DNA of 58,598 nt from an uncultured Geobacteraceae bacterium. GTDB taxonomy: Bacteria; Desulfobacterota; Desulfuromonadia; Geobacterales; Pseudopelobacteraceae. The DNA is taken from NCBI GenBank assembly GCA_903925005.1, contig CAIYDX010000364.1, forward strand, positions 1 through 58,598, in the 5' to 3' direction. The notes under the pieces were generated by a model. The model saw only the letters and a program-made list of their open reading frames with translations, was not told the DNA's origin and did no database searches. Shown here piece by piece: positions 25,879 to 46,243 of this stretch; position 1 is the first letter of the stretch, and every line of letters starts with the position of its first letter. The position numbers and the translations under genes were made by a program.

Positions 25879-25979
25879 GATGAGGGATGAGAGATGAGAA
25901 AATCATCTCTCATCTCTCATCTCTCATCTCTCATCTCTCATCTCTCATCCCTCATCCCTCATCTCTCATCCCTCATCCG
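25879..25979. repeat. Heptanucleotide array and hairpin between metF and cheB
   Basis: About eleven copies of the 7-bp unit CATCTCT/CATCCCT run from 25904 to 25979. They are preceded by the inverted form, so GATGAGGGATGAGAGATGA (25879-25897) pairs with the array start (25903-25921) with one G-U. It lies between convergent genes and so may act as a terminator. The copy number looks prone to slippage. It ends 6 bp before the cheB stop codon. Confidence 0.75.
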
Positions 25980-25985
25980 TTTTCA

Positions 25986-27071
25986 TCATACCCTGATAAC
26001 TCTCTGTCCGCTGAACGCCAGACAATTCATGATCCTGCGCGGAATATCGGACAGTGGCGATATTTCATCCACCCCGCCCCGCGCTATAGCCTCTTTCGGC
26101 ATACCGAACACCACGCAGCTCGCTTCATCCTGGGCAATGGTATGGGCTCCGGTTTGATTCATCTCCAGCATTCCTGCCGCACCATCATCTCCCATGCCGG
26201 TCATGATTATGCCGATACAATTTTTCCCGGCGCTGTTGGCGGCGGAGCGGAACAGCACATCCACGGATGGACGGTGGCGGCTGACCGGCGGGGCGTCGGC
26301 AATCCGGGTTATATAGTTGGCGCCGCTGCGAGCAAGCAGCAGATGCCGGTCCCCGGGAGCTATATAGGCATGGCCAGGGAGTATTCGGTCATCATCACGC
26401 GCCTCCTTGACCGAAATTCGGCAGAGGCGGTCAAGGCGATTGGCAAAGGCGCTGGTAAATGCCGCGGGCATATGCTGGGTTATCAGGATACCTGGCGAGT
26501 CGGCCGGCATGGCGGTCAGCACATCCTTCAACGCTTCGGTTCCTCCGGTGGAAGCCCCGATTATCACCAGCTTCTCGGTAGTCATGATATGCGAATTCAG
26601 TGAGGGGAGCACCACATCGGCACTGTTTTTCTTTTCGACTTTCAGCTGCGCAGGGCGAACAAGGTTTTTAATCCTGACTGAGGAAGCCCCGCGAATCTTG
26701 TCTACTATCTCCTGACAGCTCTCGTGCAAACCCTTACTGATGTCGATCTTCGGCTTCGTGACATAGTCGAATGCCCCCAGCTCCAGAGCCCGCAGCGTGA
26801 TATCCGAACTTTTTTCGGTCAGCGACGAAACCATCACCACCGGCATCGGGCGGAGCCGCATCAGCTTTTCCAGAAAAGCCAGCCCGTCCATGCGCGGCAT
26901 CTCAACATCAAGAGTCAGCACATCCGGATTAAGAGCCTTGATCCGGTCGCGGGCAATGAATGGATCCGGAGCTACGCCGACCACGGTCATATCCGGCTGG
27001 CTGTTGATCAATTCGGTTAAGAGACTCCTGATCAGAGCGGAGTCATCGACAATCAGGACTTTTATCGGCAT
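25986..27071 (-). CDS. cheB: Chemotaxis methylesterase/response regulator CheB
   Basis: Removes methyl groups from, and deamidates, receptor glutamates. About 361 aa. The N-terminal receiver has [11 protein letters not shown] and the phospho-acceptor Asp55 ([12 protein letters not shown]). The C-terminal esterase carries the Ser-His-Asp triad in [19 protein letters not shown] and [10 protein letters not shown]. The start at 27071 is preceded by GGAGATATTC; an earlier in-frame Met lacks a site. It is the last gene of the chemosensory operon, 36 bp after the HD-GYP gene. Its partner methyltransferases are the CheR at 29.8-30.7 kb and perhaps the CheR-like protein at 35.1 kb. Confidence 0.96.
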
Positions 27072-27107
27072 GAATATCTCCAGGCACAAACTTACATAGC
27101 CTTATCC

Positions 27108-28694
27108 TCATTCAACGTCCGAAGTTCTTTCGGAATCTGCTGTGGCAAAGCATTCGTAAATTTCATCGAACGTACCGTCAATATTACTGAAAACGGTCAG
27201 AATATCCGGATCGAAGTGTGACGGCTCTATCCTGCCGTCTCCTTCCATAATTATGCGGCAGGCGGTTTTGTGATCAAAGGGAGGTTTGTAGCTCCGTCTG
27301 TTGCGCAGGGCGTCATAGTTATCGGCTATGGTAACGATGCGGGCATCCAGCGGAATAGCCGCGCCGCGCAAGCCAAAAGGATAACCGCCACCGCTCCACC
27401 GCTCATGGTGGTGAAGCGCAATGTTGCGGGCTATTTCCAACCGGGGATGATTGCCGATGATTTTGGCTCCGTACAGCGGATGCTCACGCATCAGGGACAT
27501 CTCGGTGTCCGTAAGTTTACCCGGTTTTTTTAACAGCTCTGGCGGGATATGGATTTTACCCACATCGTGAAGTTGACTCTGCTGCGCAATAATCTTCGCC
27601 AGCTCTTCAGAATAACCGATCCGGCGACAAATCGCGGCGCAGTATTGGCCGACACGCAGAATATGATTGCCGGTATCTTCATCGTTTGCCTCGGCAGCCC
27701 TGGCCAAAGACGTGATGGTATACAGGAAAGCCTCGTCGGTCTGGTGGTGTTGCGCCGAAATGGCATCCATGTAACGCGACTGCACGGCAAGGTTCTTGAG
27801 TACCGCGGCATCTCCGGCTGTAACAGGAGCCGGGTAGTTGAGGGCACAGAGAACACGGCGACCGTTGCGGTACCAGACAAGGTTGCGCGGTTTTTCACCA
27901 AAGCGGCTGAAATGTTTTACAAAACGCCTGAGGAGCGGGTCGTCCGGAAGTTGCTCATCTTCGTTAATGTAGTAAAGGGCATGGCTGCCGACTGACAGAT
28001 TCAGATCCAGATCCGGATGATCCAGAAAACAACTTTTCTGTAGCGGCATCCCCCTCTCCGTCTCGTACATTAACCATTCCGGCTGCCCGGCCAGACCATT
28101 TGTCAAAGTCATGATCAGGCAGGCTGGACTATGCGTTGCCGCACCGCCTTCCCCGCAGAAAAAACCCTCCACAATCCGGTTGAGCTGCCATTCCATCTGG
28201 ATACTCAGATTAATAGAGCTATCCAGATTTTTCTCACTGTAATCAATCAGCGAGTTTATGGTCTGATAAGCGACAGAGATGTAACTCTCCCTTTCGCTAA
28301 GAATTCTGGCTTTTTGAACAAGTTCGACGCAATGTCGCAGGGAAGCGTCCAGCTTTTCCCGATCCAACGGTTTGAGCAGATAGTGGCATATGCCGAGATC
28401 AATCGCACCCAGAAGATATTTTGCCTCGTTGTAAGCCGATGTCAGGATAATGGTCGCCTTATCATTCTCTTTCAAAATAGCGCGGGACATCTCCAGACCA
28501 TCCATGACCGGCATTTTGATGTCGGTCAATACAATATCCGGTATCTTATCACGATACAGCTCATATCCCGCCGCCCCGTTTTCCGCCATTAATACCTGGT
28601 CGAACCGGCGATTAAGAAACCACAGCATATTCTCGCGGATTACATCGTCATCCTCAACGTACAGGATCGACGTATCCTTTATCTTTGTGATCAT
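27108..28694 (-). CDS. Response regulator with HD-GYP c-di-GMP phosphodiesterase domain
   Basis: About 528 aa. Receiver 1-120 with ILYVEDDDV and Asp58 (IVLTDIKMPVMDG), a middle region of about 190 aa with no clear family, then HD-GYP. The catalytic set is present: QLHDVGKIHIP, MREHPLYGAKII, HHHERWSGGGYP and IADNYDALRNRR; the usual Asp in the HHE..DG.GYP motif is Ser. It probably hydrolyses c-di-GMP when phosphorylated. The start region overlaps the 3' end of the preceding kinase gene by about 40 bp; an in-frame ATG at 28706 is an alternative, but the G-rich site (GGATGGGGGG) favours 28694. In this operon without CheY, its receiver is a candidate CheA or kinase target. Confidence 0.9.
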   Translation of the reverse strand: MITKIKDTSILYVEDDDVIRENMLWFLNRRFDQVLMAENGAAGYELYRDKIPDIVLTDIKMPVMDGLEMSRAILKENDKATIILTSAYNEAKYLLGAIDLGICHYLLKPLDREKLDASLRHCVELVQKARILSERESYISVAYQTINSLIDYSEKNLDSSINLSIQMEWQLNRIVEGFFCGEGGAATHSPACLIMTLTNGLAGQPEWLMYETERGMPLQKSCFLDHPDLDLNLSVGSHALYYINEDEQLPDDPLLRRFVKHFSRFGEKPRNLVWYRNGRRVLCALNYPAPVTAGDAAVLKNLAVQSRYMDAISAQHHQTDEAFLYTITSLARAAEANDEDTGNHILRVGQYCAAICRRIGYSEELAKIIAQQSQLHDVGKIHIPPELLKKPGKLTDTEMSLMREHPLYGAKIIGNHPRLEIARNIALHHHERWSGGGYPFGLRGAAIPLDARIVTIADNYDALRNRRSYKPPFDHKTACRIIMEGDGRIEPSHFDPDILTVFSNIDGTFDEIYECFATADSERTSDVE

Positions 28695-29706
28695 GTTGCC
28701 CCCCATCCGTTATCGAAGCCGGCAACCGAAGGCCAAACAGTGCGCCTTCCGGGATATTTTCAGCCCAGAGTTCTCCCCCCATGCTGTTTTCAATAATCAG
28801 TTTCGAAATATACAGGCCTATTCCGATGTCGATGGCTTCTTTAGTTTTAGTTGTGAAATACGGCATAAAGAGTTGCTCCATCGCAGTTTCGGCTATACCG
28901 CCGCCGTTGTCTGAAACGGTCATGACGGCATCATAATCGCCATGCGTGAAGTTTATCTCGATTCGTCCCCGAAATTCCGGCCCTATCAGGCGTTGCCGTT
29001 CCTGAATTGCATCATTGGCATTGCCCAGCAGGTTGAGAATCACTTGATTGAAACTGTTTTGACACCCGGCAACCTGAAAATTTTCCGCCCCCTCGATTGC
29101 ATTGATTATGATGTCCGGATAATTTGAAAACCAGCCGGATATCAGTCCCACTATCTCCTCTATACTGCGCATCGGAATAAAATGCTGTGTTGTCACTTCA
29201 GGATTGAGAAACATCCGGAAATCGTCCAGGGTCCTCGACAGCATTGTTATCTGTTCCACAATCTTGAACGCGGATAGATTAAGATATTCTTCATCCAGTT
29301 CACCGTATTCCCAGGCATCCTTGATGTTTTGGACAATGATCGATACACCGTTCAGCGGTTGGCGCCATTGATGGGCAATGGCCCCCAGCAACTCTCCCAT
29401 AGCGGCATGGCGCGCCTGATGGAGCATGACGCGTTCTTGCGCCGCCTGTTTCTGCCGCATCGCCTCGATTCGGGATTCCATGGAACTCTGCAACTCGTAT
29501 AACTCGCTGTTTTTTTGCAGAACGAGTGATTCAAGGTGGGTAGTATACAGATGCAGGAACTCCACACCGACATCAGCCGAGGCGCTACCGGCGGAGATGA
29601 TGTCGGCACATGGGGAACCAGCCGTATTTCCATCAGCAATCCTGTGTCCAAAGGATGGTTTATATCCTGCAAAATCGATTGTTCTGCATTTTTTCGCACC
29701 GGTCAT
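28654..29706 (-). CDS. Histidine kinase without recognised sensor domain
   Basis: 350 aa, soluble. Residues 1-50 are low-complexity, 50-95 form a coiled coil, then the dimerisation box GELLGAIAHQWRQPLNG with His112 as phospho-acceptor, and HATPase with NLLGNANDAI, DNGGGI and the GIGIGLYIS lid. There is no PAS, GAF or membrane segment, so it presumably takes its signal from a partner, for example the receptor array encoded in the same operon. Its 3' end overlaps the HD-GYP regulator gene, which is its most likely phosphorylation partner. A GAGGA lies 8 nt before the ATG. Confidence 0.9.
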   Translation of the reverse strand: MTGAKKCRTIDFAGYKPSFGHRIADGNTAGSPCADIISAGSASADVGVEFLHLYTTHLESLVLQKNSELYELQSSMESRIEAMRQKQAAQERVMLHQARHAAMGELLGAIAHQWRQPLNGVSIIVQNIKDAWEYGELDEEYLNLSAFKIVEQITMLSRTLDDFRMFLNPEVTTQHFIPMRSIEEIVGLISGWFSNYPDIIINAIEGAENFQVAGCQNSFNQVILNLLGNANDAIQERQRLIGPEFRGRIEINFTHGDYDAVMTVSDNGGGIAETAMEQLFMPYFTTKTKEAIDIGIGLYISKLIIENSMGGELWAENIPEGALFGLRLPASITDGGQHDHKDKGYVDPVR

Positions 29707-29743
29707 GGCGGTATCCTCTTTAACGACCTCTCATCCCTCCTCA

Positions 29744-29775
29744 CGCATAGCACTCCTCACGCATAGCACTCCTCA
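29744..29775. repeat. 16-bp tandem duplication at the end of cheR
   Basis: The unit CGCATAGCACTCCTCA occurs twice in direct succession, covering the last codons and stop of cheR and the first bases after it. On the minus strand each copy contains TGAGGAG, so one copy supplies the stop codon and a spare ribosome-site-like sequence. Confidence 0.7.
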
Positions 29776-30665
29776 CCATACGCCACATCACCCGAACAGA
29801 CCGGTTGACAGATATGAGGGCGGTAGACCGTTTTTCCGCAGTGGTCGAACAGATCGGCCACATGATTGAGATTTTCAGAATGACCGGCAAAAAACAGACC
29901 GTCGGTTTTAAGATGCCGCAAAACATGCTGTAATACTCGTTTCTGAGTGGAGCGATCGAAATATATCATCACGTTTCTGCAAAAAACGGCGTCATACTGA
30001 ACAGAATGCGGCCAGACATGGTCGAGCAGATTAACTGTATTAAAGGTAACCATCTTCTGCAATTCCGGACGAACCTTGACGTAGCCGCAATTTTCCTTCC
30101 CCCCCCTTAAAAAGTAGCGCCGCATAATTTGTTCGGACAGGAATTCGATACGCTCGACCGGATAGATCCCCGCCCGGGCCGTCGCAAGAACCCCCGGATC
30201 AACGTCGGTGGCCATGATGTCAACCGGCGGAGCCAGCGACCCGAACTGTTCCGCCATACTTATCGCTATGGAATAAGGCTCCTCTCCTGTGGATGCCGCG
30301 CTGCTCCAGAGCTTGACTCTTCCGCTGGATGCCTTTTTTACGGCATGTTCCGCCAGGATCGAAAAATGATGCTCTTCACGGAAGAATGAAGTCAGATGCG
30401 TAGTCAGCGCACCGACAAACGGTCCCCACTCCGACCCGTCCCCCTTGGTCAAATAATCCAGATAAACGCTGAATGAATCCAGTTCCAGAAGCCGCAAACG
30501 CCGTGAGAGCCGGGAATAAACCATCTCGGCCTTTTTCGGAGGAAGACAAACTCCGGCACGTTGATACATCAGAGCGCTGATCCGCTTGAAATCGTCTGCG
30601 GTAAAGCGGTATTCGTGCTGTCCGCTACCGGAGTTGAAGCTGGACGTCGAATTCGACAGCTGCAT
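29757..30665 (-). CDS. cheR: Chemotaxis methyltransferase CheR
   Basis: SAM-dependent methyltransferase acting on receptor glutamates, about 302 aa. The N-terminal all-alpha domain has FKRISALMYQRAGVCLPPKK; the SAM site is LWSSAASTGEEPYSIAI; later motifs are IMATDVD and YDAVFCRNVMIYFD. The beta-subdomain segment RGGKENCGYVKV matches E. coli CheR in length, including the glycine-bearing loop that distinguishes pentapeptide-binding CheRs. This fits the EWNEF end of the neighbouring receptor. Start at 30665 has TAGGAG 7 nt upstream; upstream in-frame Mets lack a site. It lies between the MCP gene and the histidine kinase. Confidence 0.94.
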   Translation of the reverse strand: MQLSNSTSSFNSGSGQHEYRFTADDFKRISALMYQRAGVCLPPKKAEMVYSRLSRRLRLLELDSFSVYLDYLTKGDGSEWGPFVGALTTHLTSFFREEHHFSILAEHAVKKASSGRVKLWSSAASTGEEPYSIAISMAEQFGSLAPPVDIMATDVDPGVLATARAGIYPVERIEFLSEQIMRRYFLRGGKENCGYVKVRPELQKMVTFNTVNLLDHVWPHSVQYDAVFCRNVMIYFDRSTQKRVLQHVLRHLKTDGLFFAGHSENLNHVADLFDHCGKTVYRPHICQPVCSGDVAYGEECYA

Positions 30666-30780
30666 GGCTTTGCTCCTACTTTGTTTTTTGAGGAAAACCG
30701 ACATCAAAGACAAATCCCCAGCACCTCGTAACATCTAAATCTACCCACCCTCACTCCCCCCTTATTTAATGGGGGAAGCC

Positions 30781-30840
30781 TTTAAGTCTCCCCTTAAATA
30801 AGGGGAGATTTAAAGGGGGTAAGGGGGTAAGGGGGTAAGT
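30781..30840. repeat. Hairpin plus GGGGGTAA tandem repeat after the MCP gene
   Basis: CTCCCCTTA and TAAGGGGAG (30788-30807) form a tight hairpin extended by TTTAA/TTAAA flanks. Three copies of the 8-bp unit GGGGGTAA follow (30813-30837). It lies just past the MCP stop and before cheR, so it may lower read-through between them. Confidence 0.55.
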
Positions 30841-30846
30841 TGTCCA

Positions 30847-33800
30847 TTAAAACTCATTCCACTCAACATCATGCCCGACAGCCTTGGCCACTTCAGCGCC
30901 CCTGGCTTCGTTGTAACCGCTGGCCTTGTGATAGCCATTAGCTTTACCGGACTTTTCCGCCACCTTGGCCTGCTTTACGGCTTTAGGCACGGCCTGCCCC
31001 TTTGCGGCGACCGGCTCCATCTTCAACACCTTGGCTGTTTCGCGTTGCTGCCCTTTGCTCTGATCGTCAAGCTTGAAGCGGTTAACCGCCTCTACCAGCA
31101 ACTGAGCCTGTTCTTCCAGTGCGCCGGCGGCAGCCGAAGCCTGCTGCACGACCGAGGCATTCTGCTGGGTGATCTCGTCCATGCTGGTGATGGCGCCGTT
31201 GACCTGTTCGATACCGCTCGACTGTTCAATTGAAGCGGCCGAGATTTCAGACATGATGTCGGTCACCCGTTTGATGCTGGTGACGATCTCCTGCATGGTC
31301 TGGCCAGCCTCTCCTACCAGCTTGCTGCCATTACCGACCTTGTCCACCGAATCGCTGATCAGCTCCTTGATCTCCTTTGCCGCCGCTGCGCTCCGCTGAG
31401 CCAGATTGCGCACCTCGCCGGCCACGACCGCGAAACCGCGCCCCTGTTCACCAGCCCTTGCCGCTTCAACCGCCGCATTCAAAGCCAGAATATTCGTCTG
31501 AAAAGCGATGCCGTCGATAACCGATATGATATCGGCAATTTTCTTTGAACTGCCACTGATGGACTCCATCGTATCCACCACGCGGGTGATGACATTGCCA
31601 CCCTTGACCGCTACATCGCTGGCATCGATCGCAAGCTGGTTGGCCTGCTGCGAATTGTCGGCGTTCTGTTTGACGGTGGAGGTCAACTCTTCCATGCTGG
31701 AGGCGATCTCTTCCAGGGACGATGCCTGGGTCTCGGTGCGCTGGGCCAGGTCAGAGTTGCCGGTGGCGATCTGTTTGGTAGCACTGGCGATCGAATCGGA
31801 GCTGGAACCGACATTACCAACGATCTCGCGCAGATTGGCCGTCATAGTGACAAAAGCATTGCCTATGGCATCGTTTTCGGAGGCCGGTTTAACGTTCACG
31901 GTCAGGTCGCCTTCGGCAATCTGCTCAGCCACGCCGGCCAATGTCTTCAGTTGCGCCACCATGCGGGTCAAGGCCTGCATCAGCTGATCCTGAGGGGAGC
32001 GCTCGCGCACCTCAACCGACAGGTTGCCGAGGGCAATCTGTTCGGCAGCACCGGTGACTGAGTTCATCGCGTCTATAAGCACGTTAAGGTTGTTCTTGAT
32101 CTCGTTAAAGTCGCCGTTATAGTTGTCGGAGATTTTGGGCGGAATATCACCCTTGCTGATCCGGTCAACATACTCGGCGGCCACATTCAGCGGGCCGATA
32201 ACCGAGTCGAGGCAGTCGTTGACGCCGGAAACTATTTTTTGAAAATCGCCTTGATGTTTTGAAGCATCAGCGCGGGTGGCCAGTTTGCCGTCTACAGCGG
32301 CTTTCGAAAGCATACCGGCGTCGTCTACTAATGCATTGACCGCCTTGATGCAGGTATTGAGATTGTTCTTGATAGTGTTAAAGTCACCGTTGTAACTGTC
32401 AGTAATAGTTAGTGGAATATCGCCTTTAGAAATTTTGTCAACGTAGTCGGCGGCGACATTCAGTGGGCCGATAACAGAGTCTAGTGTTTGGTTGACACCT
32501 TCCACGATGGCTTGGAAATCACCCTGATGCTTGGAAGCATCAGCGCGAGTGGCAAGTTTGCCTTCCACGGCGGCCTGGGAGAGCATTTTGGCGTCATTGA
32601 CCAGCGCGTTGACCGCCTCGATGGCCTGGTTCAAGTTGTTCTTGATTTCGTTGAAGTCGCCGTTGTAGTTATCAGTGATCTTTGGCGGGATATCTCCCTT
32701 GGAGATGCGATCCACGTATTCGGCAGCCACGTTCAGCGGGCCGATAACCGAGTCAAGGGTCTGGTTGACGCCTTCCACGACTTTCTGGAAGTCGCCCTGG
32801 TGTCTTGTTGCGTCGGCGCGGGTGGCCAATTTACCTTCAACGGCTGCTTTAGAAAGCATACCGGCATCGGCAACAAGAGCATTGACCGCTTTGATACAAG
32901 TATTAAGATTGTTCTTAATGTTGTTGAAGTCTCCGTTGTAGCTGTCGGTAATCTCCGGCGGAATTTCGCCTTTGGAAATTTTGTCTACATAATCGGCAGC
33001 GACGTTCAAGGGGCCGATAACGTCATCAAGTGTTTGATTGACGCCTGCGACTATTTTCTGGTAATCGCCCTGATGCTTCGCGGCATCGGCACGAGTGGCC
33101 AGCTTGCCGTCTGCCGCAGCTTTGGCAAGCATGCCGGCATCCGCGACAAGCGCGGATACGGCGTCAATAGCCTGATTGAGGTTGTTCTTGATTTCGTTAA
33201 AATCACCGTTGTAGCTGTCAGTGATCTTCGGAGGGATATCGCCCTTGGAGATGCGATCCACATACTCGGCAGCTACGTTCAAGGGGCCGATCACGGAGTC
33301 GAGGGTTTCATTGACGCCGACCACTATTTTCTGGAAGTCGCCGTGATGCTTGGAGACATCGGCTCGGGTAGCAAGCTTGCCATCAATCGCTGCTTGGGAG
33401 AGCATACCGGCATCAGCTACCAGGGCGTTGACGGCATCAATGCACTGGTTGAGGTTGTTCTTGATCTCGTTGAAGTCGCCGTTGTAAGTGTCGGTGATCC
33501 TGGGCGGTATGTCGCCCTTGGAGATACGATCCACGTACTCAGCGGCCACGTTCAAGGGCCCGATCACGGCATCCAGGGTCTGGTTGACACCATCCACGAT
33601 TCCGCGAAATTCAAAGTTGATCCCCTCCACTTCACCACGGGTGGCCAGTTGGCCACCCACCGCCGCCTCGGTCAGACGCGCCGACTCATCCAAAAGTCCC
33701 TTGAGGATCGCGGCAATGTTGCGTTTAAGGTAGAAACCGATTCCCATTGCCAGAAGAAGCGCCAACACGATTGCACTCACCATGACCCCTTGCATCCGGA

Positions 33801-34407
33801 CGGTTTCCACTTCTCCGGCCTTGTTCGCTTCATGCCCCAGTTTCACGTTCAGTTCGATCAGTTTTGTCAGGGGCTCATCCACATCCAGAAATATCTTGCG
33901 TGAGTCCAGGGAGGCATCAAACACCTTGGCGTCAATAGCATCGATACGGGCATCATTCAAATTTACTCCAGAAGCAATAATACGGTCTATTTCCCGTGAG
34001 AGGTCAACAACCTGCTGATGCGCCTTTTTCCATGCCTCCCATTTGGGAACGAAACCTTTCCACATGACCGCTTCTTCCTTGGTCTGCGGCAGCGGCTCGT
34101 AGATCTTCCATGCCTCGTCGGCCTTCTTGAGCGCCTTGTCGGCATAGTCATACTGGGCCTTCCTGATTTGCGGTACCATCAACCTGCGGATGATCAGGCC
34201 GCGCTCCGCAACCATGACCCTGTTCATGGACTCGCTCATGAGCAGAAGGCTCTGGACACTTGGAAGCCGGTTGTCTCCGAGTTCACCCAAGTCCTTTGCG
34301 ATTTCTCTCATGCCATATATTCCCACACTACCCATAATGGCGGTTATCAGAACAACCAGCGCAAATCCCGTGATTATCTTGGTTCCAAATTTCATCGTTT
34401 TGAACAT
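30847..34407 (-). CDS. Methyl-accepting chemotaxis protein with a six-unit poly-HAMP array
   Basis: Transmembrane chemoreceptor, 1186 aa, about twice the usual length. TM1 at 10-32, a periplasmic four-helix-bundle-like sensor (about 35-205), TM2 at 206-228. From about 236 to 785 come six 91-residue repeats, each with [33 protein letters not shown] and [13 protein letters not shown] segments. Two further HAMP-like stretches follow ([15 protein letters not shown] and [15 protein letters not shown]). The signalling hairpin holds the standard tip ([23 protein letters not shown]) of the 36-heptad class. A flexible tail of about 70 aa ends in EWNEF, a CheR-tether-like pentapeptide. GGAGG lies 8 nt before the ATG. 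The repeat units fall into two sequence types. Ligand unknown. Confidence 0.95.
32085..33722 (-). repeat. Six tandem 273-bp repeats within the MCP gene
   Basis: The codons for IGPLN recur at exactly 273-bp intervals (reference bases near 32192, 32465, 32738, 33011, 33284 and 33557). High DNA similarity makes the array prone to unequal recombination and to mis-assembly. Boundaries are approximate. Confidence 0.85.
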
Positions 34408-34444
34408 GGTAAATTTCCTCCTTTTTTGTTATTGACTGTGCGTA

Positions 34445-35083
34445 TCAATATACGAACTGTTGCATGGCTTCGTGGTACTGTTTCTCAAGCCCATTATCCG
34501 ACCTGCGCAGAACATGGAGACTTTTCCTCACCAACTCGTTGAGCCCGCCGCAAACCGCTCCGTTGTGACCGGTATAGGCAAGCCACAAATTGAGTTCCGC
34601 CAGCCTTTCCAGGGTGATCAGCCCCTCCGGCGAGAAAGATTCTTCCACAACATGGCAACGCAACGGCGTATCGCCGGAAAAGAGACATCCCGACTCGCGG
34701 TGAAACAGGCAGATCGAATCGGATGAATGCTCGGGGGTATGAATAACGTCCAGATAGCCGTCAGCCACCCGCAGACATTGGCCGTCACTTATCAGTTCAT
34801 CCACGCACGGACCGTCGCAGAAAGCCAGCACTCGCGCCCCGTAGCGTTTTTTCAATTTAGATACCCCTCCGGCGTGATCAAAGTGATTGTGGGTCAGGAT
34901 GATCTGTTCTACCGGGCGCTTGCCGCAGCCGGTCGGTATCGTATCTATCTGCGCGATGATGCTGCCGTCCGTGCCGGGATCTATCAGGGTATTCCTGTCC
35001 TCCAGCCGGTTCCACTCCCCCAGTATCAGGTAGCTGTTGCAGGTATAGATATCCGGACTCTTGCAGAGTGACTTTACACGCAC
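34445..35083 (-). CDS. Metallo-beta-lactamase-fold protein in the chemosensory operon
   Basis: 212 aa, cytoplasmic. All di-metal ligands are present: His65, His67, Asp69 and His70 in THNHFDHAGG, His119 in HTPEHSSDS, Asp138 in FSGD and His173 in TGHNG. It is therefore probably an active hydrolase or a di-iron/di-zinc sensor. The start is GTG at 35083, one base after the CheR-like stop, with AGGGG 6 nt upstream; this implies coupling. MBL-fold proteins next to chemotaxis genes include the di-iron oxygen-binding ODP of Treponema, which gives a precedent for a sensory role here; homology to ODP itself is not shown. Confidence 0.87.
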   Translation of the reverse strand: MRVKSLCKSPDIYTCNSYLILGEWNRLEDRNTLIDPGTDGSIIAQIDTIPTGCGKRPVEQIILTHNHFDHAGGVSKLKKRYGARVLAFCDGPCVDELISDGQCLRVADGYLDVIHTPEHSSDSICLFHRESGCLFSGDTPLRCHVVEESFSPEGLITLERLAELNLWLAYTGHNGAVCGGLNELVRKSLHVLRRSDNGLEKQYHEAMQQFVY

Positions 35084-35084
35084 C

Positions 35085-35693
35085 TCACACCCCTACCTTG
35101 CGGAACAGCTGGGCATCGGGTACCACCTGCTCAAACTTTTCCGAGAGCTCCTGCGGCATCTTCTGGGTGTTTTCACAGGCAAGGAAACCGCCCGGCGTCA
35201 GTGCCTGATGAAACATCTTCATCACCTCGATCCTCTGCTCGGGCTGAAAATGCAGTAGTACGTTCTTGCAGACGATCAGGCAGTAGTCATTGCCGGCCGG
35301 TTGCAGCGAGAGCAGATCATGGTAGCGGAAGCGGACCCGCTCACGCAGATGCGTGGTGACCCGCATGTGCCCCGGCTTCTCCGCCGGTTCGAAATACTTT
35401 TTCACAAGCTCTGCCGGGGTGCGCTGCAGCTCATCAATGGGGTATACCGCGCTGGTAACGTGATCGCCGAAATTGTTGGCCTGATCGTAATCGGTGGCTT
35501 CGATGGTCAGATTGCGAAAAGCAAATGAATTCATTCTCTCGGCCAACACCATGGCGATAGTATAGGTTTCCTGACCCAAAGCGCTGCCGGCCTCCCAAAC
35601 CCTGATCCGGCTCCGTCCGGAGGCATGAGGTATCATATGATTGGCGGCATGTTCCAGAGTAGGCAGGTCGCGCATGAAAAAGGTGAAAGCCAT
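35085..35693 (-). CDS. Short CheR-like methyltransferase (no N-terminal domain)
   Basis: 202 aa, against about 270-290 for CheR. The N-terminal helical domain that recognises the receptor methylation helix is missing. What remains is the SAM-binding fold: RVWEAGSALGQETYTIAMVL (CheR usually has SxGxEPYS), IEATDYD, the segment up to the beta-subdomain (VKKYFEPAEKPGHMRV) and LIVCKNVLLHFQPEQR. The same trimmed type occurs in chemosensory clusters of related bacteria as I recall it. It may be a SAM-binding regulator or methylate something other than the receptor. AAGGAG precedes the ATG by 6 nt. It sits 16 bp after cheW. Confidence 0.85.
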   Translation of the reverse strand: MAFTFFMRDLPTLEHAANHMIPHASGRSRIRVWEAGSALGQETYTIAMVLAERMNSFAFRNLTIEATDYDQANNFGDHVTSAVYPIDELQRTPAELVKKYFEPAEKPGHMRVTTHLRERVRFRYHDLLSLQPAGNDYCLIVCKNVLLHFQPEQRIEVMKMFHQALTPGGFLACENTQKMPQELSEKFEQVVPDAQLFRKVGV

Positions 35694-35709
35694 TTTGTAC
35701 TCCTTACGA

Positions 35710-36219
35710 TTATGCTGCCAGATCCAGTTGGGTATCGGCGGAAGCCATCAGTTGCATGTCGTCGCTACCGATCAGCCTCTCTATGTCCGTCAGAATCAGC
35801 ATCTGCTCGTTGACTGTACCGATGCCGGTGATGTATTCGGAGTTGATACTGGAGCCGAACTCCGGTGCCGGTTTGATCTGGTCGGACGATAGAGTGACCA
35901 CGTCCGAGACACCGTCCACCACCATTCCAATCACCCTTCCCAAGACATTGATGATGATCACTACGGTGAACTCGTCGTAGACCACGTTGTCCAGGTTGAA
36001 CTTGATTCGCATGTCGATGATCGGTACGATCACGCCACGCAGGTTGATGACCCCTTTCATGAAATTGGGGGAGTTGGCGATGCTCGTAACCGAGTCATAG
36101 CCGCGAATTTCCTGTACCTTGAGGATATCCATGGCGTACTCCTCCTTCCCCAGGGTAAACGTGAGATACTCCTGCACCCCACCTTCGGCTGTCCTAATCG
36201 TATGTTCGTCCATGCTCAT
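35710..36219 (-). CDS. cheW: Chemotaxis coupling protein CheW
   Basis: Adapter that joins CheA to the receptor array. 169 aa, one CheW domain made of two beta-barrel halves: LTFTLGKEEYAMDILKVQEIRGY, the MKGVINLRGVIVPIIDMR core, and GMVVDGVSDVVTLSSDQIKPAPEFG. No response-regulator fusion, so not CheV. GGGGGAG precedes the first ATG by 3 nt; a second in-frame ATG two codons later would have better spacing. Directly downstream of cheA (15 bp gap). Confidence 0.95.
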   Translation of the reverse strand: MSMDEHTIRTAEGGVQEYLTFTLGKEEYAMDILKVQEIRGYDSVTSIANSPNFMKGVINLRGVIVPIIDMRIKFNLDNVVYDEFTVVIIINVLGRVIGMVVDGVSDVVTLSSDQIKPAPEFGSSINSEYITGIGTVNEQMLILTDIERLIGSDDMQLMASADTQLDLAA

Positions 36220-36234
36220 ACTCTCCCCCTTTTT

Positions 36235-38301
36235 TTATTTACTCCGCCAAAGCCGGACCATATCGACCGCATCAAGAATCAGGGCTACCCGGCCGTCGCC
36301 AAGTATCGTCGCCCCCGCGGTGCCGTCCACTTTGCGGTAATTTGTCTCAAGACTCTTGATCACCACCTGATGTTGCCCCAACAGTTCGTCCACCAGCAGC
36401 GCCAGATGTTCCCCTTCGGCGTCAATCAGCATGACAACCGCCTCTTCAGGACGTTGGACGGCCCCGGAGATGGAGAAAACGTCCCCAAGCCGAATCAGTG
36501 GTATGTATTCACCGCGAACATGCACCGTGGTATTATCATGGCCGACCTCATTCAGATCTTTTCTTAGCGGCTGCAGCGACTCGATGATCGAGTTGAGCGG
36601 CACAATGAAGGTTTCTTTCCCGACACGCACCGAGAGTCCGTCCAGAATCGCCAAGGTCAGCGGCAGGGAGATCACTACACGGCTCCCCTTTCCTTGAGTG
36701 GAAAAGACATTGACGCGCCCCCCCATAGCGGTGACGTTTCGGAGCACCACATCCATACCGACCCCGCGCCCCGAAACATCGGTAACCTCTGCAGCGGTGG
36801 AAAAACCGGGGGCAAAGATCAACTGCCAGACCTCTTCGTCGCTCATAACATCAGATATCGGCAGCCCGTTTTGAACAGCTTTGGCCAGGATTCGCTCCCG
36901 ATTCAGCCCGGCGCCATCGTCGGCCACCTCCACCACAACCCGTCCACCCTGCTGCGACGCCTTGAGGGTGATCACGCCGCCGGGTGATTTGCCGCCGGCA
37001 ACGCGTGTCTCGGCAGACTCGATTCCGTGATCGAGACTGTTGCGCACCAGGTGTGTAAGAGGATCCGCCAGTTTTTCGACCAATCCTTTGTCCAGTTCAG
37101 TTGTCTCACCCACCAGCTTCAGCTCGACCTGTTTGCCAAGCTTGTCCGCCAAATCATGCACCAGACGCGGAAATCTGCTGAAGATGAAGTTTATCGGCAT
37201 CATCCGGATCGACATGACGCTTTCTTGCAGGTCCCTTGTATTCCGTTCCAGAAGCGACAAGGCACGGTGCAGATTCTCGAACTGCACCGGATCCAGCAGC
37301 TGGGCGGTTTGGGCCAGCATCGCCTGAGTAATGACCAGTTCTCCCATCTGGTTGATCAGTTGATCGACCTTGGCCACTCCGACGCGTATCGATGAAGTCT
37401 CGGTATTTTCATTGGGCCTCCTTCCGAAGGCGCCGGGAGCTGTTTCATTTTTGTCGTACAGGCGCCGCCCCAAAACCGTTCCGCCGTCCGCAGCTGCTTC
37501 TTCCGTTTTGGATAAAGTTTCCGATTGCGCGAGGAGAGCAGCGGAATCACCATCATTTCCGGATACCGGTCCAAGTGCCTCGATACGCACCTCCTCTTCA
37601 TCTGCCACGAACATGAATATTTCGCGGATATCTTCATGAGTGCGGTCGGTAGTCAGGGTCATCTCCCAGGAAACCGTGCAGCGGGTCGGATCGTAGCTCT
37701 GTAGTTCCTGATGCGGCTCGATCTTGCCGGTAACCGTGAAGTCACCAATGCCGGACAGTTCTTCAAAGATCGGTTCCATGCGCACCATACGGGTGTACAG
37801 GTCCGGAGGGGGCGTAAACAGAATCCGGTAGGTCGCGGCGGAGACAGGCTTGCTGTTGTCTACAGGCGTCTCCGGTGCGGAGGATGGAGCAGGTCGGACA
37901 GGAGAGTGTGCACCATTGGATGAGATGGCGCTCAAACGTTCGCAGACCTTTTCAATAATCTGTTGATCTACACTGCTGCCGTCCCGATGACCGGCCAGCT
38001 GCATGTTAATGGCATCTCCGGCCTGCAAAAAGACTTCAACCATTTCCCCGGTAAGCGCAATTTCGCGGTGCCTGATCCGATCCAGCAGGGTCTCAAGAGT
38101 ATGGGTCACCACAGTCATATCCGGGAACCCGAACGTCCCGGCACCACCTTTGATGGAATGCGCCGCCCGGAATACGGCGTTCAAATCTTCGTCATCCGGA
38201 TTTGCCGGATCGATGACCAGAAATATCCGTTCCATCTCCGCCAGATGCTCGGCACTCTCATCAAAAAACACTTGGTAGAACTGACTGAGGTCAACGTTCA
38301 T
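36235..38301 (-). CDS. cheA: Chemotaxis histidine kinase CheA
   Basis: Central kinase of the cluster, 688 aa. P1 (HPt) holds His48 in FRAAHSIKGGAGTF. Residues 150-250 form a ferredoxin-like P2-type domain (YRILFTPPPDLYTRM through VRIEAL). A linker precedes P3 (dimerisation; LINQMGELVITQAML), P4 ATPase with HLVRNSLDHGIE, VADDGAGLN and GRGVGMDVV, and P5, CheW-like (VRVGKETFIVPLNSI). Complete, so probably active. Since no single-domain CheY is in the cluster, its phosphoryl acceptors are CheB, the REC-HD-GYP protein or regulators encoded elsewhere. Starts 21 bp after the STAS gene. Confidence 0.97.
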   Translation of the reverse strand: MNVDLSQFYQVFFDESAEHLAEMERIFLVIDPANPDDEDLNAVFRAAHSIKGGAGTFGFPDMTVVTHTLETLLDRIRHREIALTGEMVEVFLQAGDAINMQLAGHRDGSSVDQQIIEKVCERLSAISSNGAHSPVRPAPSSAPETPVDNSKPVSAATYRILFTPPPDLYTRMVRMEPIFEELSGIGDFTVTGKIEPHQELQSYDPTRCTVSWEMTLTTDRTHEDIREIFMFVADEEEVRIEALGPVSGNDGDSAALLAQSETLSKTEEAAADGGTVLGRRLYDKNETAPGAFGRRPNENTETSSIRVGVAKVDQLINQMGELVITQAMLAQTAQLLDPVQFENLHRALSLLERNTRDLQESVMSIRMMPINFIFSRFPRLVHDLADKLGKQVELKLVGETTELDKGLVEKLADPLTHLVRNSLDHGIESAETRVAGGKSPGGVITLKASQQGGRVVVEVADDGAGLNRERILAKAVQNGLPISDVMSDEEVWQLIFAPGFSTAAEVTDVSGRGVGMDVVLRNVTAMGGRVNVFSTQGKGSRVVISLPLTLAILDGLSVRVGKETFIVPLNSIIESLQPLRKDLNEVGHDNTTVHVRGEYIPLIRLGDVFSISGAVQRPEEAVVMLIDAEGEHLALLVDELLGQHQVVIKSLETNYRKVDGTAGATILGDGRVALILDAVDMVRLWRSK

Positions 38302-38322
38302 AAATCATCTCCGAGTCAAACA

Positions 38323-38640
38323 TCAGGCCGCATCCGGATAGTTGTCGGTAAAACAGTGGCCAAGACCCAGATGCCTGATGCTCTGCTGCATGCCGTCCGG
38401 CAGATTGTATAGATGTGCTTCCATGCCACGCATCTTTACCAACTCCATCCAGACATGGAGGAGTTGTAGTCCGCTCATGTCGATGCTCTTGATTTTTCCG
38501 CAGTCAACCTGAATGCGCTTCTTATTCCCGGCTTCCAATTTCTGCAGGGAACGAGACAACACGTTCACCTGGCTCACGACACCTTCAATGGTCCAATTTC
38601 CTGACAAATGATGCTTGCTGTCTGTTGTCCGGGTTGCCAT
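38323..38640 (-). CDS. STAS-domain protein (anti-sigma-factor antagonist-like)
   Basis: 105 aa, one STAS domain. Strand RIQVDCGKIKSIDMSGLQLLH contains the conserved Asp-x-Ser-Gly with Ser56, the residue phosphorylated in SpoIIAA-type proteins. A strong AAGGAGG lies 6 nt before the ATG, and it is the first gene of the chemosensory operon, so it should be well expressed. No anti-sigma kinase is encoded beside it. It may link array output to a partner-switch or bind the CheA complex; inference. The 275-bp region upstream (38641-38915) shows no gene and no promoter I can defend. Confidence 0.88.
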   Translation of the reverse strand: MATRTTDSKHHLSGNWTIEGVVSQVNVLSRSLQKLEAGNKKRIQVDCGKIKSIDMSGLQLLHVWMELVKMRGMEAHLYNLPDGMQQSIRHLGLGHCFTDNYPDAA

Positions 38641-38915
38641 ACAAACCTCCTTTTCAATTTAAGGGTTGTTTTATTAAAAACAGATAAGCATCTTTACACT
38701 TTGTGTGCCAAATTCATTTATGGAAATTGGTTTGGATTACGGAGGGTTAAAAATGAAGTAATTGCAAGCGGAGGTAATTTTTTTGCACCAAGAACATGTG
38801 ATTTACAAAATTATGGAACATAACTTAAATATATCTATTAGTTGACGAAGGTAAAAAATTTGCGGTTGGCGGCAAATAATTTACTTCAGGAGAAGAGGTA
38901 CTAAAAATATTTGGT

Positions 38916-40863: not shown

Positions 40864-43734
40864 TTATACGCACAGCTGGTCAATCTGTTGCAGCAGCTCT
40901 TCAAAATCGAGCGGTTTTGCCGCATAACCGTTAAAGCCGCAGGACAGGAAACGTATCCGATCCTCACTGAAGGCATGCGCCGTCATCGCGATAATCGGCA
41001 CCGCCGCATCGATTCCGGTCTGATCGCCGGAACGGATGATCCGCAGCACTTCGATGCCGTCCATGTCCGGCATGGATATATCGGAGAGGATGATATCGAA
41101 CTGCTGCCACTGTAGCGCTTCAAGCAGTGAAGTGCCATTCTCGACAGCCGTTACACTGTGCCCTCTGCGCTGCAGCATTGCAGCGGTGACGCTTCTTCCA
41201 AGTTCATCGTCGTCCGCAAGCAGTATTTTCCTGGGTACAGCGGGAATTGTCTCTGCACACCAGGCAGTTGCCTGCCGAATCGGCCGGCTGACGGCAACCG
41301 GAAGCGACAGGGTGAAGACGGAACCTTGACCCGGCATGCTCGACAGAGTGATAGTCCCACCCATCATCAACGCCAGCCTGCGGCAGATTGCCAGTCCCAG
41401 GCCGGTACCGGCATGGCGGCGATCGCTGAAGTTTTCCAGTTGGGTAAAGCTGTCGAAGATAGTTTCCTGTTTTTCAGGAGGGATCCCTATGCCGGTATCG
41501 CGAACCGCTATCACTAAAACAACACTATCCTTATGCGTATCGAATGGCGGCTGTTCCCAAGTTATTTCGAGGGAGATCGTACCGTGGTCGGTGAATTTTA
41601 TAGCGTTGGAGAGCAGGTTGGTTATGATCTGGCTCAGCCGATGCTGGTCGCTGGAGATATGGGCGGGGAGGTCTCCGGCCGATTTAAGCGTGAGTGCCAC
41701 CCCTTTATCTACGGCACTGCCGGCAAAAATCTTCACAATTCCCCGGACCATCGAGATCACGGAAAATGATTCTTTGTTCAACTCAAGCTTGCCCGCCTCG
41801 ATCTTGGAGAAATCCAGCACATCGTTAATGACCTGAAGCAGCATTTGAGCGGCGGAGTGACAGTTTTTCAAATATACCTGCTGCTGAGGTACAAGCTCTG
41901 ACTCCGAAAGCAGTTCGATGCTCCCCAGCAAGGCGCTCAAAGGGGTACGGATCTCGTGGCTCATGGTGGCCAGAAAGGCGGTCTTGGCATTGCTGGCAGC
42001 GTCAGCAGCGGCTTTGGCTTTACGCAACTGTTCCTCGGTTTCCATCTGACCGGAAATATCATGAGCAACCCCAATAAACTGCCACTCGTTATTTGCATCT
42101 AAATACCTAGAGCCATTGGCAACAAAATAGCACCATGATCCATCGAAACGTTTAACTCGATAAGGTGGGCTTGTAATATTCTGACAGCCATTCATAATTT
42201 GCATGAGATATTCAGCACAAGGCGATATATCGTCCGGATGTACGAAAAGAGAAAAATTTCTCCCAAGTACTTTTTTTAGAGAGTAGCCAAAATGCCGCTC
42301 CCATGCACGAGACACAAACTGGAATTCCCCTTCAGTGTTAAGTGTAAAAATGACATCGATCGAGTTATCCATATAGGCTTTCAATCTGCCTCTACTCTCC
42401 TTCAATGCACTTTCCGCAGTTTTACGGTCGGTGATATCCCTCCCCACGGCCTGGTATTCAATGACAGATGCCTCGGAAGAATAGACACCTCGGTGAATCC
42501 AGTGCTGCCAGCGGAGCGTCCCGTCAGACATGATTACCTGATGTTCGACATTCACTATAGGCCTGTCGGAAGTAATCTCCTTGAGCTGTTCTAAAACAAT
42601 GGTGAGGTCAGGTTCCGGGATGTGTGGAATATAGTTATGGTTAATAAGCTGGTTGCGTTTCTTTTTGAAGCAGCGAAGGTAGGCTTCATTAACAAAGGTT
42701 AGTCTGCCGTCAGGTCGATAGCGGCAAATCAGATCGGTCTGGTCTTCGACTATTGCCTGATAACGCGACTCGCTCAACTGCAGCTCCGCTTCCGCAATTT
42801 TCCGGTCGGAGATGTCACGAATGAGTGTAACAATATGATTTTGCGATCGCAAAAAGACTGTACTTATTTCAACGCTATAAACCCAGCCCTCTTTGGTCTT
42901 GTGCTCACTCTCAAAACTGGCCACGCCATCTGCAATAAGTTCTTCCAGATGTCGGGCAGTTTCTTCCGTTGACTCGGCTGCATCGAGGTCCGTTATATAA
43001 AGCTGCAGCAATTCTTCTCTGCTGTATCCGGACATCCGACAATAGGTGTCGTTTACATCCATCATTTTTCCCGTCATATCCAGCAACCAGAAACCAAACA
43101 GACCAGTTGCAAGCACGGCCTGATACTGTTCGGCATATTTATTAATATCTTTTTGGGATTGCTGATGAAGTAACATTTCGATCTGCCTGCGTTGACTTAT
43201 ATCCGTCACCACAACCCAACGTTCATCGCTCCGCATCTGGGTCATCTTCAGTTCCGCCCAGAAAAAGGAGCCGTCTTGTCGCGCCAGCCGCATCTCCCAC
43301 TGCCAAGACAATAATGACCCGGATATTTTACTGCGCTCAAGGTAATAGATATCCAGTTCTTCGGGCAAGACGTACTTTGTGAATGGTTTATTTATAAGGG
43401 CAGGCCGTGCCACTCCAAGCAGCGTGGCAATCGTGAGATTGGCTTCCAGGACATTTCCCAGTTTATTAAGTGTCAGATAACCGACCGGCGCCATATCAAA
43501 TAATTCGAAGTAGCGCCTGTGTGACTCATCAAGTTCATCATGGGTCCGAAGTAATTCGTCGTTTTGCTGCTCCAGCTCTATCTGATGCATTTGCAATTCG
43601 TGATGGAGGCGATTCATAGCCATAAGCGACAACTCTTTAGATGTCGTAGCGTTATACGCCCCGATTATCGTTTTGGCTCGCTGCCGGAGCCTCTTGCCTG
43701 ATTCACCCTTCATGACCTTGCCCCTTCTTGACAT
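40864..43734 (-). CDS. Hybrid multi-PAS sensor histidine kinase with C-terminal receiver
   Basis: About 956 aa, soluble. The N-terminal helix (NRLHHELQMHQIELEQQNDEL) matches that of the PocR kinase at 12.7-15.6 kb. Four PAS domains follow (each ending in a DIS or DIT segment), then HisKA FLATMSHEIRTPLSALLG, HATPase (NLLSNAIKF, DTGIGIPPE, GTGLGLAICRRL) and a receiver (ILLADDDELGRS; Asp in ILSDISMPDMDG). The receiver at the end suggests a phosphorelay needing an HPt protein, which is not nearby. The start is uncertain: ATG 43734 (GAGGA, 8 nt), ATG 43713 (AAGGGG) or ATG 43788 (no site). It follows the NtrC-type gene. Confidence 0.9.
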   Translation of the reverse strand: MSRRGKVMKGESGKRLRQRAKTIIGAYNATTSKELSLMAMNRLHHELQMHQIELEQQNDELLRTHDELDESHRRYFELFDMAPVGYLTLNKLGNVLEANLTIATLLGVARPALINKPFTKYVLPEELDIYYLERSKISGSLLSWQWEMRLARQDGSFFWAELKMTQMRSDERWVVVTDISQRRQIEMLLHQQSQKDINKYAEQYQAVLATGLFGFWLLDMTGKMMDVNDTYCRMSGYSREELLQLYITDLDAAESTEETARHLEELIADGVASFESEHKTKEGWVYSVEISTVFLRSQNHIVTLIRDISDRKIAEAELQLSESRYQAIVEDQTDLICRYRPDGRLTFVNEAYLRCFKKKRNQLINHNYIPHIPEPDLTIVLEQLKEITSDRPIVNVEHQVIMSDGTLRWQHWIHRGVYSSEASVIEYQAVGRDITDRKTAESALKESRGRLKAYMDNSIDVIFTLNTEGEFQFVSRAWERHFGYSLKKVLGRNFSLFVHPDDISPCAEYLMQIMNGCQNITSPPYRVKRFDGSWCYFVANGSRYLDANNEWQFIGVAHDISGQMETEEQLRKAKAAADAASNAKTAFLATMSHEIRTPLSALLGSIELLSESELVPQQQVYLKNCHSAAQMLLQVINDVLDFSKIEAGKLELNKESFSVISMVRGIVKIFAGSAVDKGVALTLKSAGDLPAHISSDQHRLSQIITNLLSNAIKFTDHGTISLEITWEQPPFDTHKDSVVLVIAVRDTGIGIPPEKQETIFDSFTQLENFSDRRHAGTGLGLAICRRLALMMGGTITLSSMPGQGSVFTLSLPVAVSRPIRQATAWCAETIPAVPRKILLADDDELGRSVTAAMLQRRGHSVTAVENGTSLLEALQWQQFDIILSDISMPDMDGIEVLRIIRSGDQTGIDAAVPIIAMTAHAFSEDRIRFLSCGFNGYAAKPLDFEELLQQIDQLCV

Positions 43735-43804
43735 GTTGTCCGTCCTCAGCACGGCATCCTCTGCTCCGAAGTTGTCCTTGCGTGTCATTCATCATCGCTA
43801 ACCG

Positions 43805-46120: not shown

Positions 46121-46243
46121 TTGGCACGTACTTTCAAGTTTCAACTAATTAAAGGAAATTTCCCAGATTAGCGGAATGCTTAAAAGCAGTTTAATACAAA
46201 AAATGGTTTGGTCAACTTGATGATGTTATTTTTTTAACTGAGC

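Follow-up and report, generated by a model that had tools for sequence, protein, structure and literature searches.

A CheR-like and metallo-β-lactamase-fold gene pair in an F7-type chemosensory operon of an uncultured Geobacteraceae bacterium

We analysed a ten-gene chemosensory operon in a 58,598-nucleotide stretch of DNA from an uncultured Geobacteraceae bacterium (contig CAIYDX010000364.1 of assembly GCA_903925005.1; the whole stretch is referred to as the window). In our best overall explanation, which we consider moderately probable, this is an F7-type (E. coli-like) array operon that carries a kinase/HD-GYP module and a second module, made of a CheR-like protein (CheRL) and a protein of the metallo-β-lactamase (MBL) fold. 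As an operon it is an F7 variant; the new part is the CheRL-MBL module.

All ten open reading frames were confirmed at 25986..38640 on the minus strand. The closely spaced, one-strand order given in the initial annotation agrees with the reading frames, the gaps and the Pfam domains. With the start codons chosen, the intergenic gaps from the STAS gene through cheB are 21, 15, 16, 1, 37, 112, 50, -53 and 18 bp, a spacing that would, as expected, fit a single transcript. The gene order is beyond chance, most of it recurring in orthologous operons. In the order of the operon, the genes are as follows.

38323..38640, minus strand: STAS-domain protein of 105 aa, first gene of the operon (Pfam STAS_2, 33.3 bits; placed before cheA in near-orthologous operons)
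36235..38301, minus strand: CheA histidine kinase of 688 aa, E. coli-like (F7 type) (Pfam Hpt, H-kinase_dim, HATPase_c and CheW)
35710..36219, minus strand: CheW coupling protein (Pfam CheW, 135 bits)
35085..35693, minus strand: CheRL, a CheR-like protein without CheR_N (Pfam CheR, 126 bits; alignments; residue counts)
34445..35083, minus strand: MBL-fold protein of 212 aa, glyoxalase-II-like (Pfam Lactamase_B, 78.2 bits; alignments; closest solved relatives)
30847..34407, minus strand: poly-HAMP methyl-accepting receptor (MCP) (Pfam HAMP_2, with 6 stretches counted, MCPsignal and 4HB_MCP_1; hydropathy)
29757..30734, minus strand: full-length CheR (Pfam CheR, 180.6 bits; CheR_N, 58.4 bits)
28654..29706, minus strand: histidine kinase (HK) (HATPase_c, 58.5 bits; HisKA, 20.8 bits, below the cut-off of 26.9)
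27108..28706, minus strand: REC-HD-GYP response regulator (Pfam Response_reg and HD_5; motifs LHDVGK and HHERWSGGGYP)
25986..27089, minus strand: CheB methylesterase with REC domain (Pfam CheB_methylest, 231 bits)

The initial annotation listed the CheR-like and MBL genes, not that they form a widespread pair. We searched contigs with the MBL alignment, requiring exact peptide patterns, and examined the best 80 of the 175 confirmed stretches. Fifty-eight of these hold clear MBL relatives (L105-L162, profile score at or above 111 bits) and 22 distant ones (L163-L184, at or below 87 bits). CheRL was found at 50 of the 58 clear loci (one copy, in L110, is incomplete), an MCP at 50, a poly-HAMP MCP at 45, CheA at 35 and any che gene at 56; at the distant loci the counts were 0/22 for CheRL, 0/22 for CheA and 2/22 for MCP. 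Among the eight clear loci without CheRL, the MBL gene lies at a contig end in three (L128, L158, L162), while in L139, L142, L144, L148 and L157 it is not at the upstream contig end. Where the distance between the two genes was measured it is below 100 bp in 44 of 47 pairs, the remainder being separated by 154, 466 and 2001 bp.

The labels of the loci include Thermodesulfobacteriota (Geobacteraceae among them), Nitrospirota, Riflebacteria/Ozemobacter, Ignavibacteriota, Bacteroidota, Cloacimonadota and Wallbacteria. These labels were taken from record titles and tree labels and belong mostly to metagenome bins, so that some may be wrong; named isolates among the labelled loci include Geomonas, Trichlorobacter thiogenes and Citrifermentans bremense. 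Within 76 genomes of the family, at the cut-offs used, CheRL occurs in 28 and MBL in 23; 21 genomes have both, 2 only MBL, 7 only CheRL and 46 neither. Broken pieces of CheRL adjoin the MBL gene in one of the genomes counted as MBL-alone (G020), and a contig end truncates CheRL in two of the seven genomes with CheRL only. In G057, also counted as CheRL-only, a short MBL-like remnant (59 bits; L204 7321-7569) lies between CheRL and a poly-HAMP receptor gene. The window's own genome carries a second CheRL-MBL pair on contig C249 (L038 1264-2466), flanked by the end of a receptor gene on one side and by a kinase-like gene on the other. Because the pair adjoins CheAs of other types elsewhere, or lies where no CheA is in view, we regard it as a module rather than as a feature of F7 operons. 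Narrow term searches of the open-licence literature returned no published CheR-like/MBL pair.

We aligned the window CheRL with 40 of the 49 full CheRL copies (alignment A4). The tyrosine of the CheR motif CRNVMIYF is histidine in 41/41 CheRL rows, and it is kept in all 38 distinct full-length CheRs that were found by motif in the fetched loci. The loop arginine is present in 41/41 rows, as are the glycine, the glutamate and the first aspartate of the S-adenosylmethionine (SAM) motif. CheRL has the SAM-binding domain and the catalytic-loop arginine in common with the CheR of Salmonella and E. coli, and differs from it in the Tyr to His change, in the missing N-terminal domain and in the missing RG after the first YF; the last is a weak sign, as a similar regular expression finds this RG in 0/41 CheRL rows and in only 7/38 full CheRs. 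The N-terminal sequence [M/L/V]AF[T/S][F/Y]F[F/M]R begins all 49 full copies. The start was taken as the codon nearest the profile start, and the uniformity is thus partly by construction. CheRL as the mis-called start of a full CheR was rejected: the window protein gave no Pfam match to CheR_N, and in 23 of the 24 family copies the open frame extends at most 38 codons upstream of the start (130 in L045), too short a stretch for an N-terminal domain.

Both the arginine and the tyrosine have been named as essential for methylation by CheR, and in a Treponema CheR-like domain in which both are changed SAM is still bound and the array is stabilised (accessible text of PMC7666581). The CheW-CheRlike protein (CheWS) of the spirochaete F2 system described there shares with CheRL an altered essential CheR residue and the setting in a chemosensory cluster. 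Unlike CheWS, CheRL stands alone, unfused to CheW, keeps the arginine and has His instead of Phe in place of the tyrosine.

The seven metal ligands expected of an MBL protein are present in the window protein and complete in 43 of the 45 rows of an alignment with 44 other MBL sequences (A3). The two exceptions are diverged copies, the second copy of L125 and that of L157. These two MBL relatives with lost ligands (L048/L125 and L057/L157) lie at L048 4159-4773, in tandem with an intact copy, and at L057 7319-7930. Among solved structures the MBL profile best matches glyoxalase II and hydrolases like it, the top score going to glyoxalase II 1xm8, and the ligand motif of the window protein, HNHFDH, is of the glyoxalase-II type (HxHxDH). 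A flavodiiron-type protein of the same genome has the motif HxExDH, which may also be that of the oxygen-binding diiron protein described next.

In Treponema denticola an MBL-superfamily oxygen sensor, the oxygen-binding diiron protein (ODP), is genetically coupled to an MCP (PMC7319448 and PMC7666581, accessible text). The window MBL resembles it in superfamily and in MCP coupling, the sequence comparison being with the Pfam ODP model; it differs in its HxHxDH motif, its glyoxalase-II-like relatives and its usual CheRL neighbour. The window protein scores 28.8 bits on the ODP model (cut-off 27.2), and 24 of 24 MBL members of alignment A1 match the model at E <= 0.001; the same model matches in 13 of 14 control genomes and exceeds its cut-off in 9. 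The MBL protein as a plain ODP was not supported, given the matches in most control genomes and the HxHxDH ligands.

We assign the operon to class F7 because of the CheA score, the STAS gene beside cheA, the poly-HAMP receptor and the xWxxF tail of that receptor; the evidence fits this class, which is set by similarity rather than by a CheA tree. On NCBIfam PRK10547, the model of E. coli CheA, the window CheA scores 734.9 bits and does not reach the cut-off of 793. On the same model an orthologous CheA (L082) reaches 741 bits and a more remote F7-like one (L088) 726, and the CheAs of two other clusters reach 468 and 474. The receptor, of 1186 aa, has hydrophobic segments near residues 6-34 and 200-231 (hydropathy), 4HB-type matches, tandem HAMP_2 units, an MCP signalling domain and the C-terminal sequence EWNEF. 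The alignment to the E. coli MCP II model pairs receptor residues 812-1136 with model positions 219-538, and the receptor gives 606 bits on the NCBIfam Aer2 model, below the cut-off of 1200. The EWNEF tail fits the xWxxF pattern of a CheR tether that has been linked to class 36H receptors (PMC2577667, accessible text).

Early-stage F7 clusters of Vibrio, Pseudomonas and Shewanella, as outlined in the accessible part of PMC7184735, are like the window operon in having a STAS-type gene, an E. coli-type CheA, an Aer2-related poly-HAMP receptor, CheR and CheB. Unlike them, the window operon has neither cheY nor cheD, and its receptor has transmembrane segments and a 4HB-type region, not PAS; beyond them it adds CheRL, MBL, the kinase and HD-GYP. 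The F7 stages of that study apply to gamma- and beta-proteobacteria; in it, the F7 systems of delta-proteobacteria fall mostly into a clade of their own. Related Geobacter clusters were named E. coli-like Type 1 by Tran et al. (PMC2577667, accessible text); the window shares with the Type 1 clusters of Gmet1078 and Gura2167 an E. coli-like cheA, an xWxxF-tailed receptor and the matching CheR type. Among the fetched loci, the DWKEF-tailed Type 1 relatives have receptors of 576-601 aa, compared with 1186 aa in the window. The main text of PMC2577667 contains none of the words STAS, lactamase and HD-GYP. The operon had been put forward as possibly novel in composition; it is unusual, but STAS-type (anti-sigma-antagonist) genes in F7 clusters (PMC7184735) and, since 2008, HD-domain proteins in Geobacter alpha che clusters (PMC2577667) have already been described in the accessible parts of these papers.

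Orthologous operons were collected by searching the 76 family genomes with the window CheA; 29 of these genomes contained 30 matches at E <= 1e-150. A near group comprises 11 other genomes with a CheA identity of 64 to 83%, the match being partial in two, and loci from nine of the 11 were compared (L080-L087 with L064 and L099). A distant F7-like group comprises 11 of 18 matches at 56 to 61% identity (L088-L098); one small gene of L088 was identified as CheD. The near-group order is STAS-CheA-CheW-(CheRL)-MCP-CheR-HK-REC-HD-GYP-CheB. None of the eight near operons covering the place of the MBL gene contains it.

Pfam detected neither CheC, CheX or CheZ nor a stand-alone REC protein among the ten operon proteins, as the initial annotation had stated. 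As a trait of the operon type the lack of CheY did not hold up. A stand-alone cheY directly follows cheB in all six near operons that extend past cheB (L080, L081, L084, L086, L087 and L099), and these CheYs are 77 to 82% identical to that of L099. In the window no cheY follows cheB; a convergent gene, read by eye as metF, ends 129 bp from cheB, and a 75-base tandem repeat sits between the two.

25903..25977, no strand: 7-bp tandem repeat, TCATCTC x 10.7 (found with TRF), just past the 3' end of cheB, where near orthologues have cheY

The closest CheY elsewhere in the window's genome is on contig C247 and is 72% identical to the L084 CheY. By reading of open reading frames its cluster consists of STAS-like, CheY, CheA, MCP, CheW, CheR, CheD-like and CheB genes; Pfam, which was also run on the MCP-like neighbour, gave the STAS-like protein 29.0 bits against a cut-off of 29.2. 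A tree of 24 CheYs separates the near-operon proteins, all six together, from the C247 CheY by a branch with support 98/95. Since the near operons keep cheY and the C247 CheY belongs to the other clade, the operon's own cheY has apparently been lost or moved in the window lineage, or lies inside an assembly gap. Its absence would be local to the window operon and not a trait of the operon type; an operon CheY-less by design finds no support in the six near orthologues or in the CheY tree. The genome is a draft of 5.4 Mb in 419 contigs (94.88% complete, 6.16% contamination). It has 17 CheW-domain matches, and therefore probably several che clusters, and it encodes FliM. The view that output is directed away from the flagellar motor, which had been based on the lack of CheY, is not supported, given the cheY of the near operons and the presence of FliM and of another cluster's CheY in this genome.

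These data also bear on an alternative-cellular-function pathway, in which CheA would signal to the REC-HD-GYP protein (or to STAS) in place of CheY. The missing cheY of the window speaks for it, as does the retention of HD-GYP: REC-HD-GYP occurs in 6 of the 7 near-orthologous operons covering the stretch, and an HD-domain protein precedes cheB in 3 of the 10 distant F7-like clusters available from cheA through cheB. Both HD-GYP motifs (HDxGK and HHE...GxGYP) are present in 7 of 8 loci examined, the window included, and by these motifs the protein qualifies as a candidate phosphodiesterase. However, cheY is present in the near operons, FliM is encoded in the genome and the HK gene overlaps the HD-GYP gene by 53 bp. 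HK is present in 7/7 near operons, even in L085, where a PAS-hybrid kinase takes the place of HD-GYP. HK has no recognised sensor domain and no strong hydrophobic segment (hydropathy and the H-box region were compared in 7 orthologues). The overlapping kinase is more likely than CheA to be the phosphodonor of the HD-GYP receiver, CheA being only a possibility; the two are conserved together in the operon, in line with the link drawn between them in the initial annotation. Because the pair is conserved, a c-di-GMP branch in the operon is plausible, but it is not established as the output of CheA. SpoIIAA has its phosphorylated serine right after the motif aspartate. The STAS proteins of these operons have the motif D-[M/I/T/A/V]-[S/C]-G, in which the residue after Asp is not Ser. 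Because this serine is replaced by Met, Ile, Thr, Ala or Val, a phospho-Ser switch by STAS is doubtful, and we consider the alternative-cellular-function pathway as a whole unlikely.

For the F7-type operon with two added modules we propose the following scheme, in which metal binding, docking, SAM binding and the phosphotransfer paths are all predicted from sequence. The poly-HAMP receptor would control CheA via CheW, and CheR and CheB would adapt the receptor, with the EWNEF tail holding CheR. The other phosphate acceptor of CheA would be a CheY, supplied in the window lineage by another cluster or by an unassembled gene. HK and REC-HD-GYP may form a linked two-component switch of c-di-GMP phosphodiesterase activity that is made together with the array. 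CheRL and MBL would act as a pair on the poly-HAMP receptor: MBL, with a two-metal centre, is most likely a receptor-docked cytoplasmic sensor (of redox state, oxygen, metal or a small metabolite), and CheRL may be a SAM-binding adaptor of the array or receptor that has lost the normal CheR chemistry. We propose that the module resembles the Treponema ODP together with its CheR-like domain.

Gene content, synteny, pairing and residue signatures are direct observations, and the functional reading of the pair is held more cautiously. It is a tentative proposal, to which we give rather less than an even chance, that the two proteins form an undescribed module in which a metal-centre MBL detects a signal in the cytoplasm and tunes poly-HAMP receptors together with CheRL, which would bind SAM and be catalytically altered; such a module would be spread over several phyla and different che clusters, and would be parallel to, or share a common origin with, the Treponema parts. 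A sensory or array role of the pair, taken by itself, is about as tentative or slightly more so.

Several points weigh against these readings. The MBL motif is HxHxDH and differs from the HxExDH found in this genome's flavodiiron-type protein, so that the ODP analogy is one of context more than of active site. CheRL, with its loop arginine and SAM motifs, may still be an active methyltransferase. Near F7 operons covering the stretch from CheW to MCP have CheRL in only 3/8 cases and MBL in 0/8, and therefore the pair is not essential to the F7 operon; among the fetched loci, both genes are found in an F7 operon only in the window and in L105, the F7 membership of which was judged by gene order and CheRL clade. 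The distance correlation over 30 loci is 0.856 for CheRL and MBL, barely above the 0.814 of CheRL and CheA (0.79 for MBL and CheA). Co-evolution of CheRL and MBL beyond shared descent was accordingly left unproven by these correlations. The CheYs of distant F7-like loci L089, L093 and L094 also fall in the other CheY clade, and in a draft genome cheY could lie in an assembly gap. Finally, all of the support comes from sequence.

L105, from a bin titled uncultured Geobacter, reads STAS-CheA-CheW-CheRL-MBL-MCP up to a contig end, and its MBL is 74% identical to that of the window. In the CheRL tree the window groups with L082, L083 and L084 (100/97) and then with L105 (97/93). The simplest reading would be that the pair came into the F7 operon once and that some lines later lost MBL.

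A second enzymatic adaptation pair, with CheRL as methyltransferase of the poly-HAMP receptor or of some other array protein and MBL as hydrolase of the ester, would account for the tight pairing and for the retention of the CheRL arginine, the SAM motifs and the MBL metal ligands. MBL proteins are often ester or thioester hydrolases. We nevertheless judge it improbable: the tyrosine is His in every CheRL row, the operon already encodes CheR and CheB, ligands are missing from two MBL relatives (the second copy in L048/L125, and L057/L157), and CheRL is found without MBL. Still less likely is that MBL is a metabolic enzyme of the glyoxalase-II or lactonase type that makes or removes a receptor ligand, with CheRL as a passenger. 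The best solved relatives of MBL agree with such a role, but the tight pairing with CheRL is left unexplained by it, and in 30 loci that have CheRL, MBL and CheA, compared between 18 Geobacter-like and 12 other loci (216 pairs each), the supposed passenger is better conserved (mean identity 0.535) than CheA (0.471) or MBL (0.447). An ordinary E. coli-like chemotaxis operon with neutral hitch-hikers is the least probable alternative, for although the core genes are typical and MBL is absent from all eight near operons covering its place, CheRL-MBL recurs across phyla with invariant residues.

The conserved neighbourhood of the operon reaches upstream to about 46144. Upstream neighbours were searched in ten orthologous or related loci, and three signalling genes, which are likely regulators of the operon, are found there together with a promoter-like element.

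40864..43788, minus strand: PAS-hybrid histidine kinase, upstream neighbour (Pfam; match in 5/10 related loci)
43805..45283, minus strand: sigma-54 response regulator, upstream neighbour (Pfam Sigma54_activat, 179 bits; match in 10/10 related loci)
45308..46144, minus strand: kinase-like protein, upstream neighbour (match in 6/10 related loci)
38694..38711, minus strand: TTGGCA-Y-N6-TGTAA element, -24/-12-like (conserved upstream of STAS)

A 489-aa protein at 38916-40385 (minus strand), between the regulators and STAS, matches nothing in Pfam at E <= 0.001 and, at E <= 1e-20, nothing in the ten related loci. The element, as T[T/C]GGCA[C/T]-N6-TGTAA, is shared by 7 of 8 near-orthologous upstream regions, the window included (it is missing from L083), 63 to 97 bp ahead of the STAS start used; a GTAAA...TTTACC-like palindrome lies farther upstream in 7 of 8 regions (missing from L087). 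The element was not found in 11 more distant loci or in L105. Its strict form has 5 occurrences genome-wide, including that of the window, against 0 for a reversed control; the four other copies are on C199, C354, C368 and C369. In L040 the element stands some 50 bp ahead of cheW in a CheW-MCP-CheRL-MBL cluster. The GG-to-GT spacing equals that of a -24/-12 promoter, though such promoters usually have GC where the element has GT. Sigma-54-type control of the operon may be inferred. The element came from the comparison of orthologues, a one-mismatch -24/-12 pattern being at chance level in the window (9 vs 9.5). Scans of the window for sigma-70 promoters (16 vs 11.8) and terminators (11 vs 12.9) were near chance, and no Rfam match at gathering scores was found in it.

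The window operon serves as a warning that a "CheY-less" operon can be the result of local loss. The usual parts of chemosensory arrays are MCP, CheA, CheW, CheR, CheB, CheY, CheC/D/X/Z and CheV. If the reading of the CheRL-MBL pair given here is true, a protein derived from CheR, its catalytic residue invariantly changed, that is paired with an MBL protein next to poly-HAMP receptors in several phyla would add an array part to these, and how long HAMP arrays receive cytoplasmic signals would become testable.

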